Below are positions 7,154-63,149 of a DNA stretch of 64,000 nucleotides, piece by piece. Both the position numbers and the translations under genes were made by a program. Position 1 is the first letter of the stretch, and each line of letters starts with the position of its first letter. Under the pieces are notes generated by a model. It worked only from the letters and a program-made list of their open reading frames with translations. It ran no database searches and was not told the DNA's origin. Source of the DNA: Zymoseptoria tritici IPO323 (Eukaryota; Ascomycota; Dothideomycetes; Mycosphaerellales; Mycosphaerellaceae); the NCBI RefSeq assembly GCF_000219625.1, contig NC_018205.1, positions 682,001-746,000 on the forward strand, in the 5' to 3' direction.

Positions 7154-7606
7154 CTAGAAGATGTTCTTCCGGTATTGATTAGCGATGCCTTGACCACATT
7201 CTCTGCGAACGGATCTCGGCGTAAGACTTAGCGCTAAGAAGGTCGACCATCCTTCCCGAATCCGCTCGGTGGAGGAATCTTGTAGTTTGAATCCTTGCAG
7301 CTGCGTACTTTTGAGGTTCCGCAAACGGGAAAGATTTTTAAGTTGAAGACGTCGAGCGTTTCCGTGGTGGAGAGTCCGAAAAATGTAGGCCTGTGGAGCA
7401 GAGACGACCACGAGGTACCTGCGGGTCCCGAAGGCTGTGTTGTCGACATGAGGGGAGAAGGTGAGTAGAAGCAACATAAGCCAGCTGCGGAACTCAGACG
7501 CGATAGAACTATTACGATCTCCAGGGGTGTACTGTACGTTCACGAGTTGCCGACAAGTCTCCAGACTGTCCGCGGCTGATCTGCATCGGCGGCGGCGGCA
7601 TAGCAA
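7154..7606 (-). CDS. hypothetical ORF, 150 codons
   Basis: Open minus-strand frame with a basic N-terminus, a hydrophobic stretch (SWLMLLLLTF) and a basic C-terminal half (LKNLSRLRNLKSTQLQGFKL). Starts and ends fit neither neighbour. Not recognised; it could be a chance ORF in decayed DNA. Confidence 0.2.
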   Translation of the reverse strand: MLCRRRRCRSAADSLETCRQLVNVQYTPGDRNSSIASEFRSWLMLLLLTFSPHVDNTAFGTRRYLVVVSAPQAYIFRTLHHGNARRLQLKNLSRLRNLKSTQLQGFKLQDSSTERIREGWSTFLALSLTPRSVRRECGQGIANQYRKNIF

Positions 7607-28749: not shown

Positions 28750-30060
28750 ACAGTACTATCGTTATATACTCTATAGCTAATTATATACTTAAATGTAGGC
28801 CCGCCGTCCTTCTTTATAGAGCGTTTAAGGTGCTAATATATCTAGCCGCCGTCGTCCGCGTTCTTAGAGCTAGGCTTAAGATCGCTATGCTCGTCGGGCT
28901 TAACGTAGATAATATAAGTAATCCGGACGTTCGCGGTAGGAGTCTTAAGGCCTGTCTTCGGCTTAAACAGCTACATTATCCTAAGCGTAGTATCCGCTAT
29001 AGCGAGATTAGTATTACCGAGCTTAATAGGCTAGCCCTTACTATACTCCTTAGTAAGGTAGATGTCGTAGTAGGGCTTCTATAGCCGCTTCCTCGTAGTT
29101 ATACTCTCGTTTAAGAGATACTATAGGAAGACATTACTACGTTTCTCCGTAATAGCGTCCTTAAGAGCCGTATCTATAGTAGTAATAGTACCTTAGGCTA
29201 ACTATATATACTCGTTACGGCGACTAGAATACCTAGGTACTACGTCCTCGTCGTTATCGCTTAGATCTTCTATGTCGACGGTATCGATAGTATACTTAAT
29301 AGTAAAGACCGGTAATGCTACGACCTTATCGTCCTTCCTCTTAGGGCTAGCCCTATTCGTACTCTTCGTATTAGCTAATAGCTCCTTAATACGCTTAGCC
29401 TTCTTAGCCTCCTTTAATAAGTTAGCGGTAGCGTTAGGGGTCTTACGAGCCTTCGGCTTAGCCTCCTTCCTTATCTCTATATTAGTACGGCTCTACGTAA
29501 TATAAAAGCCCTCGCGAGTACTAGAGCTAGGAGGGGTAGGCTAGCGCTTATAGTTGCTCGTAGGCTCGTCGTCGTCGCTCGCTAGAGCTCGTAAGGGTAG
29601 AGGGCAGCCGTAGAAGCTATAGTTTTTATCGCCTAGGTTAGTATAAGAGGTATAGGGTAGAGCCGTAGGATTACGGTAGAACTAAGGGGTAGCTATAAGA
29701 GCGCTATATATATAAGGGACGGTAGTAAGTAAGAGTAAGAGGAAGAGGAAGAGGAAGGGTAGGAGGGCATACCCTTATATATCGTTTAGTCGAATATAAA
29801 GCTATTAGTACGGAAGAAGTCCCTTATACGGTTACGCGGCTATAACTTAGCGCCCTTCGGAGAGGTCTAAAACTCCGCGAGGTTATTACTAGCGGTAAGA
29901 TAACGAGCGGTAGTATTATAGAGATAGAGATATATATTTATATAGATCTTATCCTCGTTAGCGTCTAGCTCGCGGCTATCTAGCGTTACCGGATAGCTAC
30001 TGGCTACTAGCATCTCGGAAGCCTATAGTAGAGTCGGCGGGGGAAGGTATATAATAAGAT
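28750..30060 (-). pseudogene. second transposon gene, 5' part (right of Gypsy)
   Basis: Minus-strand protein-like reading with RIP stops. A region near 29800-30050 has LDANEDKIYINIYLYLYNTT; a basic helical region near 29300-29470 has KEAKKAKRIKELLANTKS; then EYI-LA-GTITTIDTALKDAI and SIKKDGGPTFKYIISYRVYN at the Gypsy junction. There it continues into 16702-16100. A frame change or intron lies between the first two parts. Not recognised; probably an accessory protein of the integrase-core transposon. Confidence 0.45.
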
Positions 30061-30199
30061 CTATAAATAGTTAGCTCGTTACGGTACGTAAAACGCTCGT
30101 AACGCTAGTAGGCTAAGATACTAACTAGTAAGCTCTTAATCCCTTTACCGCTCCTTAACCTTAGTAGGCTCGTAGTAGGCTCGTAGTAGGCTCGTAGTA

Positions 30200-30299
30200 G
30201 GCTCGTAGTAGTACGTAAGCTACTCGTAGGGGAATCCTAACCGAATTTAGTATACTAATCCGCTATCCGCTAGATACGCGGGTACTCTATATTAAGGTA
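30200..30299 (-). pseudogene. transposase C-terminal end beyond the SINE-like insertion
   Basis: Removing the SINE-like element and one 12-bp duplication joins VEDRGIYLNI to EYPRI in frame, giving the C-terminal tail of the integrase-core transposase. A short run of 11-bp GGCTCGTAGTA repeats (30168-30208) lies just after. Confidence 0.5.
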
Positions 30300-30329
30300 T
30301 TGTTTTGTTTTGTTTGTTTGTTCCATTTA

Positions 30330-30382
30330 CGTCCTTTCGGAGTCCAAGACTATGTAGGACGGCTTTGCCATAAAGGCAAAGC
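30330..30382 (-). other. 3' end stem-loops shared with the LINE
   Basis: Read on the minus strand: hairpin GCTTTGCC-TTTAT-GGCAAAGC (30362-30382), followed by an outer stem CGTCCT/AGGACG enclosing AGTC-TTG-GACT, then the tail. The LINE has the same two-stem layout with a different first stem. Such structures are known to be bound by reverse transcriptases of stringent-type LINEs. Confidence 0.7.
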
Positions 30383-30984
30383 AGTAGATCTAGTTACAAT
30401 CAGATTTTTCGGTATTCTTTGACCTTAGGGGAGACCCCGTGCCTAAGGCAATTGCCTTGCCAAAGGACTTTAAACAAATGCGAGACAAAGGAAATCAAAC
30501 GAGTGTTGCAGCCTAAGGCTGCAGAATTTTCGCGCCAAGCTTTTGCAGAATTTTCAGCGGATGCTTCCGCTTCGTACGCACGCTGCAAATTCGAATGCAA
30601 AAGCAGTGCAAAATGCCGTGCAAAAGCAGTGCAAAATGCCGTGCAAAAGCAGAAGCAGCTGTCCAACTCGCTGCCTTCTCTTGTCCTTAATACGCCTTTG
30701 TGGAACTATATGCCGCTTCCAAACGCATACAGCTACGCAGGTTGATCGCAGAGTTATGGATTCCACCGACTGTTCTAGCTCTTTAAAGTGCTTCGGTTCG
30801 GATTTCGAGGAGGTGCGCGTATAGGGCAGAGTGGACTGCTTCTCCTTCTTCTTCTTCTTCTCGTTTGTAGCGTAGAGGGCTGTTCGTTCGAATCGTGCCG
30901 TTGTTCTGTTGTAGCTTGTATTTCGAGGCGGATTTCGAGAAGGATTTCGGGCGGATTTCGAGAGGTTTTCGAGGAGGTTTCTTC

Positions 30985-31060
30985 CAGACTGTCTTGGTTT
31001 CCCTTCCGAGGAAGGTACTTACGACGGCCACCGCGTGAAGGTGCAGTCTGTTCGGCCGTC
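30985..31060 (-). ncRNA. HDV-like self-cleaving ribozyme, copy 1
   Basis: The first 76 nt of the SINE-like element, on the minus strand. P1 GACGGCC pairs with GGCCGTC (7 bp). P2 CAGACTG pairs with CAGTCTG (7 bp). P3 ACC pairs with GGT, closing L3 TTCACGC (HDV L3 is UCCUCGC). P4 CCTTC-CTCG-GAAGG follows. J4/2 contains CCAAG, fitting the catalytic C-N-A-A-N pattern. Order and nesting are those of the double pseudoknot. P1.1 seems weak (one or two pairs). Predicted cleavage is just before the first G, exactly the 5' boundary given by the target duplication. HDV-like ribozymes are known at 5' ends of R2 and other non-LTR elements, where they release the element RNA from a co-transcript. Confidence 0.85.
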
Positions 31061-31072
31061 TATATTAAGGTA

Positions 31073-32638
31073 AATCCCGCGATCCTCTACGCTATTAGGA
31101 GGATAGTCGTAATTATAAGTAGGAATACTAGGCAAGTGCCCTACGACTTTAGCCTACTTCCGAATAGCGTAGTTGTTATAGCTATTAATAAATAGCTTAA
31201 CCGTGAACCGGAGGATTAGAACGTAGATAGTAAGGAATACTATACGGTTAGCCCTACTATCCTCGCTATAGAGCTCTTTATCGCGGAGCCGGTAGAAGAG
31301 ATTACGCTATCGATTCTATCCTATAGCTATACTAAGACCCTAGAAGCGCTCGATCGTCTAATTACCCTTACTCGTTATATACTAGAAGCTATCGCGGAAT
31401 TTAATACTCGCACCCTCCTAAAGTTTATAGTAGAAGAGGTATATATTAGCTATTATAGGAGTCTCTACGCCGTAATCCGCCTATATAATCTATATATAAA
31501 GGGAGTTAGTAGAGCTACGAGTATACGACGTACGGTAACGAGCCTACCTATAGTATAAAGCTAAGTTCTCGGACTATATCTAAATACTACTTAGAAACCG
31601 AGAAGACCGTCTTAGCTATAGTACCTATATAGATCTATATAATCTTCCGTATAAATATATCGATATAGGCGTAAAAGTAGATACTAAAGGTCTCGAACTT
31701 ATAGTAGGTATCTACTAACTATATATAATTAGGACCCTTAGCCTTTAGACGACTCCGCTAGACTAGCTCCTAAGTACCCCTCCGGCGGCGTATATTATAA
31801 CCTATAGGATTAAGGGTATACGCGATATAAGATATACGATTCCTACGAGCCGGCGAGCGTTAGCGTACGAGCTAGGCGGAGGAGTTTACGAGTAAGGGAA
31901 GTAGCGTAAATTAGGGTTTACGAGCGGACGAATCTAGCCTACGAGCGTACTTACGAGCGTACTTACGAGCGTACTTACGAGCGTATATATAGACCTTCCT
32001 ATAAGGTAGAATTCCTTCCGTAGGTACCTTACTAACCGCTTATATCTATAGTTATCTAGGGCACCGCCTATAATCGTCCCCTCTAATACTATCCGTATAA
32101 TCTTATCGTACTCTAGTTACTTATCTTTAGGAACCTTTCGATATAAGCCTAGCTACTTCCGAATCGTCCGTAACTACCCTAATAATAGCTTAAAACTATC
32201 CTTCCTTAAGTACCTTAAGAGCCTCTTATCCTTAATGTCCTATTACTAGAAGAGCTCCTTAATCCTTATATATAGTAGTACTTTATATTCCTCGTCTTAA
32301 TAGACCTTCGGCTATATTAATAGTCCCTAATCCCTTAGCTTATTACGGAACGTTCGTAGGTATATATTAACGCCCTTCTCGTCCTTTAGCTATTATAGAA
32401 CGTCGTCCTATTTCTACTCGGAGACTCTAAGTAGGAGCTCGATTTCGTCTCGAAGGTAGTCGATATCGATACGAGGGCGTAGTATAGCGGACGGCGAGGG
32501 CGACGGCGAGGGTAAGGGCGACGGCGAGGGCAAGGGTAAGGGCGGTAAGGGTAGTAAGGGTAGTAAGGGTTTAGAGAAGAAGAACGATATTACGAGTAAG
32601 AGAGGTAGACGTTACGAGCGCTTAGTAAGCGTCGACAT
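31073..32638 (-). pseudogene. integrase-core (rve-like) DDE transposase
   Basis: From ATG at 32636-32638 a minus-strand frame with RIP stops reads: a Pro/Ser-rich segment; two winged-helix-like DNA-binding blocks (DYLRDEIELLLRV and LLRYLKEDSFKLLLG-LRTIRK-LGLYRK); then a catalytic core. FETFSIYFYAYIDIFIRKII and TVFSVSK-YLDIVREL match the strand with the first Asp, DYGVETPIIANIYLFYYKL is the second Asp block, and TIERF-GLSIAIG carries the Glu. YNNYAIRK and PTYNYDYPPNSVEDRGIYL form the C-terminal part. This order matches the fungal proteins usually annotated as integrase core domain-containing. The SINE-like element cuts the last codons. Inactivated by about 20 stops. Confidence 0.72.
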
Positions 32639-62375: not shown

Positions 62376-63149
62376 TTTGTTTGTTTGTTTGTTTGTTTGT
62401 TCCATTTACGTCCTTTCGGAGTCCAAGACTATGTAGGACGGCTTTGCTATAAAGGCAAAGCAGTAGATCTAGTTACAATCAGATTTTTCGGTATTCTTTG
62501 ACCTTAGGGGAGACCCCGTGCCTAAGGCAATGCTAAAGGACTTTAAACAAATGCGAGACAAAGGAAATCAAACGAGTGTTGCAGCCCAAGGCTGCAGAAT
62601 TTTCGCGCCAAGCTTTTGCAGAATTTTCAGCGGATCCTTCCGCTTCGCACACACGCTGCGAATTCGAAACGTAGTGCAAATGCCGTACAAAATGCCGTGC
62701 AAAAGCAGTGCGAAAGCAGCTGTCCAACTCGCTGCCCCCTCTTATCCTTAATACGCCTTTGTGGAACTGCATGCCGCTTCCAAACGTATACAGCTACGCA
62801 GGTTGATCGCAGAGTTGTAGATTCCACCGACTGTTCTAGCTCTTTGAAGTGCACTTTTCCGTAGAGGACCCGAATCTCTAGAGGGAAAGAGGTGCGATTT
62901 CGGTTCGGATTTCGAGGAGGTGCGCGTATAGGATAGAGTGGACTGCTTCTTCTCGTTCGTAACGTAGAGGGCTGTTCGTTCGAATCGTGCCGTTGTTCTG
63001 TAGCTTGTATTTCGAGGCGGATTTCGAGAAGGATTTCGGGCGGATTTCGAGAGGTTTTCGAGGAGGTTTCTTCCAGACTGTCTTAGTTTCCCTTCCGAGG
63101 AAGGTACTTACGACGGCCACCGCGTGAAGGTGCAGTCTGTTCGGCCGTC
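62376..63149 (-). mobile_element. SINE-like retroposon, copy 2, ribozyme-headed
   Basis: A 774-bp minus-strand element flanked by a 14-bp duplication TCGGTATAGTATTA (62362-62375 and 63150-63163). Same ends as copy 1: TTTG tail at 62376, shared LINE 3' stems at 62418-62462, HDV-like ribozyme at 63074-63149. It differs internally: a shorter GTGCAAAA-type repeat, and an extra 30-nt stretch near 62855-62890. Scarcely RIPped although surrounded by fully RIPped DNA. Inserted just downstream of the second Gypsy pol relic. Confidence 0.88.
63074..63149 (-). ncRNA. HDV-like self-cleaving ribozyme, copy 2
   Basis: 76 nt, identical in all helices to copy 1 (P1 GACGGCC, P2 CAGACTG, P3 ACC, L3 TTCACGC, P4 CCTTC-CTCG-GAAGG). 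The only difference is in J4/2, CTAAG instead of CCAAG, at the position that is variable in the C-N-A-A-N pattern. The first G is again the first base after the target duplication. Confidence 0.85.

Follow-up and report, generated by a model that had tools for sequence, protein, structure and literature searches.

A noncoding SINE of about 760 nt, dispersed in the genome, starts exactly at a predicted HDV-like ribozyme, which likely sets the 5' end of the element by cutting it from read-through RNAs. A ribozyme in this position would likely free the RNA of each copy from the transcript of its landing site. At the level of sequence, the support consists of precise 5' ends, target duplications, a LINE-like 3' end, a conserved C in J4/2, retained pairing, and a second ribozyme at the head of a subfamily, called B. 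Counted against this explanation are a negative Rfam search, a competing fold, a conserved leader, copies that depart from the model, and a cleavage pair other than C-G. A sequence-only reading of the window (the whole 64-kb stretch of DNA that was analysed) had proposed that the retroposon uses its ribozyme for 5' processing, and in this it was probably right; it had foreseen neither the second ribozyme, which heads subfamily B, nor a LINE that has a common 3' tail and in which no ribozyme was seen.

In the proposed mechanism, a SINE copy would be transcribed within a host or neighbouring transcript, and the ribozyme would fold while emerging and make its cut immediately before its own first base, so that the SINE RNA would begin with a 5'-hydroxyl and carry no host sequence. 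The LINE machinery would bind the common 3' end and the A-rich tail, target-primed reverse transcription would proceed to the 5' end of the RNA, and insertion would follow, in most cases with 11-18 bp of the target duplicated. As the cut falls upstream of the ribozyme, each full-length copy would retain it.

Architecture of the candidate ribozyme

Ribozyme A occupies positions 30985-31060 on the minus strand, at the 5' end of the SINE. Read from 31060, the minus strand is GACGGCC GAA CAGACTG C ACC TTCACGC GGT GGCCGTC GTAAGTA CCTTC CTCG GAAGG GAAACCAAGA CAGTCTG, in which the order of P1 (7 bp), P2 (7 bp), P3 (3 bp), and P4 (5 bp) is that of the HDV nested double pseudoknot. P1 is formed by GACGGCC and GGCCGTC and P2 by CAGACTG and CAGTCTG, with GAA as J1/2; an extra C leads from P2 to P3 (ACC/GGT), and L3 is TTCACGC (UUCACGC in the RNA), which, like that of HDV, begins with U and has G as its next-to-last base. 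P4 (CCTTC/GAAGG) is flanked by AGTA and GAA, which, going by the motif consensus, we take to be loop-E-like. The conserved C in J4/2 of HDV-like ribozymes is followed by NRA, and the CNAAG carried here agrees with this rule in A and B copies (one A copy has CCGAG). The helices, L3 TTCACGC, and CCAAG had all been located within 30985-31060 by the sequence-only reading, and all are in place on the minus strand; CCAAG holds for the window copy but not as the general motif, which is CNAAG across 52 A copies.

The predicted cleavage site has on its 3' side position 31060 (minus strand), the first base of P1 and of the element, where duplications end across copies. The predicted catalytic C of J4/2 is at 30997 (minus strand; SINE position 64). 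The first C of J4/2 is kept in 52/52 A copies and in 15/15 B copies, and the base after it in A copies is C in 34, T in 17, and G in one (n = 52). Because the following base varies, it is the leading C of this pair that is invariant.

When pseudoknots are left out, the minimum-energy fold contains P1 and P4 together with a rival 5-bp hairpin that replaces P2 and P3, and the z-score is -1.84; because this fold competes with P2/P3 at such a z-score, folding energy alone is weak evidence. A covariance search of the minus strand, which had been named as a check, was negative: the Rfam HDV model RF00094 gave no match to ribozyme A at either the gathering or the E 10 threshold. At genome scale, the Rfam HDV search matched no control genome either, and its negative result does not show absence. 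Weak Rfam matches of a 1-kb query to mir-9416, isrI, and Glutamine were far under the cut-off and were set aside.

The descriptor search had the opposite outcome. The HDV descriptor, which was composed with the sequence of the window copy already in view, matches the 64-kb window only at 31060 and 63149, each the first base of a SINE copy, and in dinucleotide shuffles of the window a match arose in 2/200. An early, loose descriptor had given 122 matches, and the 40 of them that were listed included at least 20 helix combinations of unrelated kinds; the descriptor was therefore tightened. With a descriptor slightly looser than that used for the window, the full set of fetched loci, which comes to 581,950 strand-bases with overlapping ones included, yielded 67 distinct matches, every one of which (67/67) had the P1 of ribozyme A or of ribozyme B. 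That the fold arose by chance, in a repeat whose copies simply have a 5' end in common, would be in keeping with the z-score of only -1.84 and with the Rfam negative. Such a coincidence is nevertheless very improbable, being disfavoured by the specificity of the descriptor, the kept C of J4/2, the positions at which the duplications end, and the pairing changes between A and B described below.

Copies, 5' ends and target duplications

After the ribozyme, the window copy continues on the minus strand with a leader of 60 nt (30925-30984), which is replaced in subfamily B. The body (30507-30924, minus strand) is common to subfamily B from about position 133, and the 3' part (30301-30506, minus strand) resembles a LINE 3' end, matching it in 155/215 aligned columns (72%), and ends in a GGACGTAAATGGAACAAACAAAC-type A-rich tail. 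The leader contains repeated CTCGAAATCCGCC-like units. No long sense reading frame is present among the frames checked in the window copy, in which the longest ATG frame is 14 aa. A second SINE copy, L012, lies at 62384-63149 on the minus strand; its ribozyme A starts at 63149 and its duplication is TAATACTATACCGA.

No RNA polymerase III A or B box was found on the sense strand of the window copy, so that the element is, in the strict sense, SINE-like; its body also contains five TTTT runs. A tRNA search of the 64-kb window found none. On the plus strand at 30868-30894, one A-box-like and one B-box-like (GTTCGAATC) string lie near each other, antisense to the SINE, and possibly reflect chance or a degenerate antisense tRNA.

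The genome searched comprises 39.7 Mb in 21 contigs, in which the 760-nt query found at least 40 loci. Genome-wide, there are 174 cores of ribozyme A and 95 of ribozyme B (each with at most three mismatches), or about 269 together, along with 265 SINE-type and 164 LINE-type tails (both with at most one mismatch); reversed-pattern controls gave 0 for the A core, the B core, the SINE tail, and the LINE tail. Tails were paired with cores for the first 100 exact tails of the 265, with entries confined to C1 to early C7, and the pairing used 68 of the 100 listed A cores (174 in all), 36/95 B cores, and 63 of the 100 listed LINE tails (164 in all). A ribozyme core was located 668-885 nt upstream in 95 of these 100 SINE tails (A in 65, B in 30). 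Among the five coreless tails, three belong to elements whose 5' part is absent in the fetched stretch, with matches beginning near positions 270, 304, and 613; in one, the element, possibly a truncated or interrupted copy, starts immediately after a LINE tail, and in the last it extends beyond the fetched stretch. SINE copies without a 5' part are seen at L080, L081, and L083, which begin near 613, 304, and 270, and at L055, which begins at position 589 and has a duplication seen by eye.

In the window, the target duplication TACCTTAATATA is present at 31061-31072 (5' copy) and at 30288-30299 (3' copy), both on the minus strand. The string shared by the two flanks is TACCTTAATATAGA; GA may extend the duplication, the end of which is thus ambiguous by 2 nt in this copy and is fixed by other copies. 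When joined with one duplication copy and aligned to an empty paralogous site, the flanks run through the junction without a gap, which indicates a clean insertion. Compared with the paralogue at L068, the host repeat (window positions ~29900-31500) has 148 substitutions, and 96 of these, read on the strand of the SINE, are C-to-T or G-to-A, which resembles the pattern of RIP.

In the fetched loci, 67 distinct elements have their 5' end (52 with ribozyme A and 15 with ribozyme B), and the tail is in reach in 65. A duplication of at least 10 bp was found in 62/65 and was absent in 3/65, whereas mismatched flanks, used as a control, gave at least 10 bp in 82/4160 pairs. Duplications are 11-18 bp long, apart from a single one of 25 bp that includes tail-like repeats. 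Relative to the first base of the ribozyme, they end at 0 in 30 elements, at +1 in 22, at +2 in five, at -1 in four, and at -8 in one; the last of these, in L062, seems to be a repeat picked in error, because inspection by eye shows another, of 12 bp, directly next to the ribozyme. No ribozyme match starting inside the ribozyme was found in these loci. The queries behind most of these loci covered the 5' end, and counts based on tails therefore weigh more: such picks account for 18 of the 65 elements, and 17/18 have a duplication.

The sequence-only reading had placed the HDV-like ribozyme at the exact 5' end of a SINE-like retroposon, and this holds across the copies examined. Its narrower statement, that the first base of P1 is the first after the duplication, is borne out across copies (61/62 end at -1 to +2) but not by the window copy alone, given its ambiguity of 2 nt. 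Genomic 5' ends scattered around P1, which it had named as contrary evidence, were looked for, and the same 61/62 duplications lie too close to the first base for such scatter.

Truncated copies also bear on whether the SINE could spread as a ribozyme-cut circular RNA, like plant retrozymes. Self-cleaving non-autonomous retroelements of the retrozyme kind are reported to exist (PMC4918200). In the copies examined here, however, the ribozyme is at the 5' end only, the tail is LINE-like, and L055 is a 5'-truncated copy with a duplication, all of which makes a circular intermediate exceedingly improbable.

Two predicted ribozyme heads and a probable LINE partner

In subfamily B, SINE positions 1-132 are replaced by another module, which starts with GG[T/C]CGGC GAC GAGGAA C ACC TGTACG[T/C] GGT GCCGGCT ACGAACC, followed by P4 and by GAG C[C/T]AAG T TTCCTC. 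This candidate, ribozyme B, has the same HDV architecture as ribozyme A with helices of different sequence. Between 12 of the 21 distinct A sequences and all eight distinct B sequences, 3/7 P1 pairs and one P1.1 pair are changed on both sides and P1 is 100% paired, a covariation that amounts essentially to one comparison of two lineages and not to a set of independent events. P1.1 consists of two pairs in B (U-A and G-C) and of one in A (C-G, or U-G in one sequence), the outer pair not forming in ribozyme A. In P4 of ribozyme B there is one compensatory pair, and in L062 P4 is 6 nt shorter with pairing still possible; the loop-E-like AGUA/GAA flanks of P4 are present in A only. Of the 67 distinct copies that were compared (52 of type A and 15 of type B), every one has the extra C between P2 and P3. 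Since two different sequences keep the ribozyme and in both the element begins at the predicted cut, the B head is the strongest evidence from sequence.

Within ribozyme A, variation is limited to L3, L4, the N of CNAAG, and helix positions whose pairing is kept, with two exceptions: the outermost P2 pair, which is lost in 10/52 A copies and is a departure from the model, and one A of J4/2, altered in the single copy with CCGAG. Among B copies, one P4 pair is broken and one J4/2 base is altered, and 7/95 B cores share a G-to-A change by which one pair of P3 would be lost (e.g. G000:C6:213601 and G000:C13:938181). The cleavage pair is G-C in 48 and G-U in four of the A copies (n = 52), and G-U in 15/15 B copies.

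L068 carries a LINE with an ORF1 of 397 aa and an ORF2 of 1142 aa that includes endonuclease and reverse transcriptase; the organism-named relatives of ORF2 are Sclerotinia proteins, plus one more distant Monilinia protein. Together with the C-to-T/G-to-A excess in the host repeat of the window, these relatives point to a fungus as the likely source of the genome. The 3' end of this LINE matches SINE positions 555-760 at 72%, and both end in a GGACGTAAATGGAACAAAC tail. In 10 further LINE copies, which were chosen by their distance from a reverse-transcriptase match, the match to L068 starts at one base, CATCGACATCC. No match to ribozyme A, to ribozyme B, or to the descriptor was found at the 5' ends of the 11 LINE copies examined, which represent one of several LINE families in the genome (others lie, for example, at C21:15700 and C9:15760). 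An A core lies upstream of only one of 63 LINE tails, on C6, within the span of a SINE, and this is probably a nested insertion. Given the LINE-like 3' end of the SINE and the ribozyme-free LINE, the SINE therefore likely uses LINE machinery together with 5' processing of its own. At L068 positions 7438-7493, a 13-bp repeat of the LINE 3' flank lies 43 nt upstream of the common LINE start, unlike a normal duplication. L039 and L073 are LINE-type copies in which only ~42-44 nt of the 3' end precede the A-rich tail; duplications are visible by eye, and the copies represent extreme 5' truncation.

Because the ribozyme-free LINE copies share one start base, sharp 5' ends alone require no ribozyme. 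The SINE 5' end might instead be set by an internal RNA polymerase II start site, with the fold surviving as a vestige or serving stability or protein binding, and no cutting. The 5' end of the LINE, equally sharp in the 11 copies examined, is in favour of such a start site, and so is the conservation of the leader. Mean pairwise identity in 41 copies, which were not chosen on the ribozyme alone, is 0.968 at positions 1-76, 0.980 at 77-136, and 0.864 in the body at 401-554; in 14 tail-selected copies, the corresponding values are 0.982, 0.971, and 0.813. Conservation is thus not specific to the ribozyme, because the 60 nt after it are about equally conserved. A start site, however, does not predict that A and B both keep the HDV topology and the catalytic C and start at the first base of P1, and we consider this explanation improbable.

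The reach of this conservation, to about position 136, also fits a 5' module that is both promoter and ribozyme, in which case the SINE would have a promoter of its own and the ribozyme would trim read-through RNA. The Pr77 module of trypanosomatids provides a precedent, with both functions within 77 nt, according to the available text of two reports (PMC4035085, PMC8256844). In the window copy, the lack of a sense A or B box and the five TTTT runs speak against RNA polymerase III. Such a module would be compatible with cutting by the ribozyme, and we regard it as possible, although rather doubtful.

Relation to known systems

Retroposons headed by ribozymes are already known as a kind, in trypanosomatids and in Drosophila. 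What looks new is the occurrence in a fungus, a partner LINE that is free of the ribozyme, and a pair of exchangeable heads. The sequence-only reading knew of no described fungal SINE of this kind, and none with an HDV-like ribozyme was found in the literature searched (titles and abstract openings, with subscription papers and preprints outside the scope); HDV-like ribozymes as such had already been reported from fungi (PMC5640933).

That work describes, in the text available, 230 variant HDV ribozymes in 26 fungal species; the genes near which they lie vary widely, and cleavage was shown for two constructs, one from Penicillium chrysogenum and one from Aspergillus niger (PMC5640933). In this class, P2 and P3 are separated by one additional nucleotide, usually C, and part of P4 gives way to a loop E (PMC5640933). 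The candidates described here share the HDV topology with these variants, as well as the extra C in both A and B, and possibly the loop E, for which AGUA/GAA beside P4 is a candidate in A only; they differ in that the fungal consensus prefers a C-G cleavage pair, whereas here the pair is G-C or G-U, and in that B has no loop E (PMC5640933). A further difference is that the ribozyme heads a SINE here, whereas terms such as retrotransposon, SINE, or mobile element do not occur in the main text of that paper (PMC5640933).

A wider, tentative proposal is that fungal SINEs have HDV-type ribozymes as 5' heads that can be exchanged: a promoterless retroposon would swap such cassettes, ride host transcripts, and borrow a ribozyme-free LINE, and most fungal variant HDV ribozymes would be 5' ends of this sort. 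We hold this to be plausible, with the balance slightly against it. The SINE described here would by itself offer a concrete role for fungal HDV ribozymes, whose gene associations were variable and to which no role was assigned in the available text of PMC5640933. It is the parasite SINE that carries the ribozyme, while its LINE apparently has none, and 5' processing would thus be separable from LINE biology. In addition, the ~269 natural ribozyme cores of two types are material for studies of activity and selection.

Among fungal SINEs, the AfuSINE families of Aspergillus fumigatus are similar in that one has a 3' end similar to a resident LINE (PMC5063351). AfuSINEs are related to tRNA or 5S, the tRNA-related ones having RNA polymerase III promoter features, and the word ribozyme does not occur in the main text of that report (PMC5063351).

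HDV-like ribozymes head trypanosomatid retroposons, as set out in the available text of two reports (PMC4035085, PMC8256844). For NARTc, NARTco, and SIDER, which carry the Pr77 ribozyme, the LINE has the same 5' module, and NARTc is described as a shortened form of that LINE (PMC4035085). Here, in contrast, the LINE 5' ends examined are without the module and the SINE shares the 3' end only.

Closer in construction are the R2 SIDE and the R2/R1 hybrid SIDE of Drosophila, in which a ribozyme is likewise fused to a LINE 3' end (PMC3414825). In the hybrid, R1, the donor of the 3' end, is not the source of the ribozyme, and 14-bp duplications are described in the text available (PMC3414825). The Drosophila SIDEs occupy rDNA sites and are described as rare (PMC3414825), whereas the SINE reported here is dispersed, with ribozyme cores of two types.
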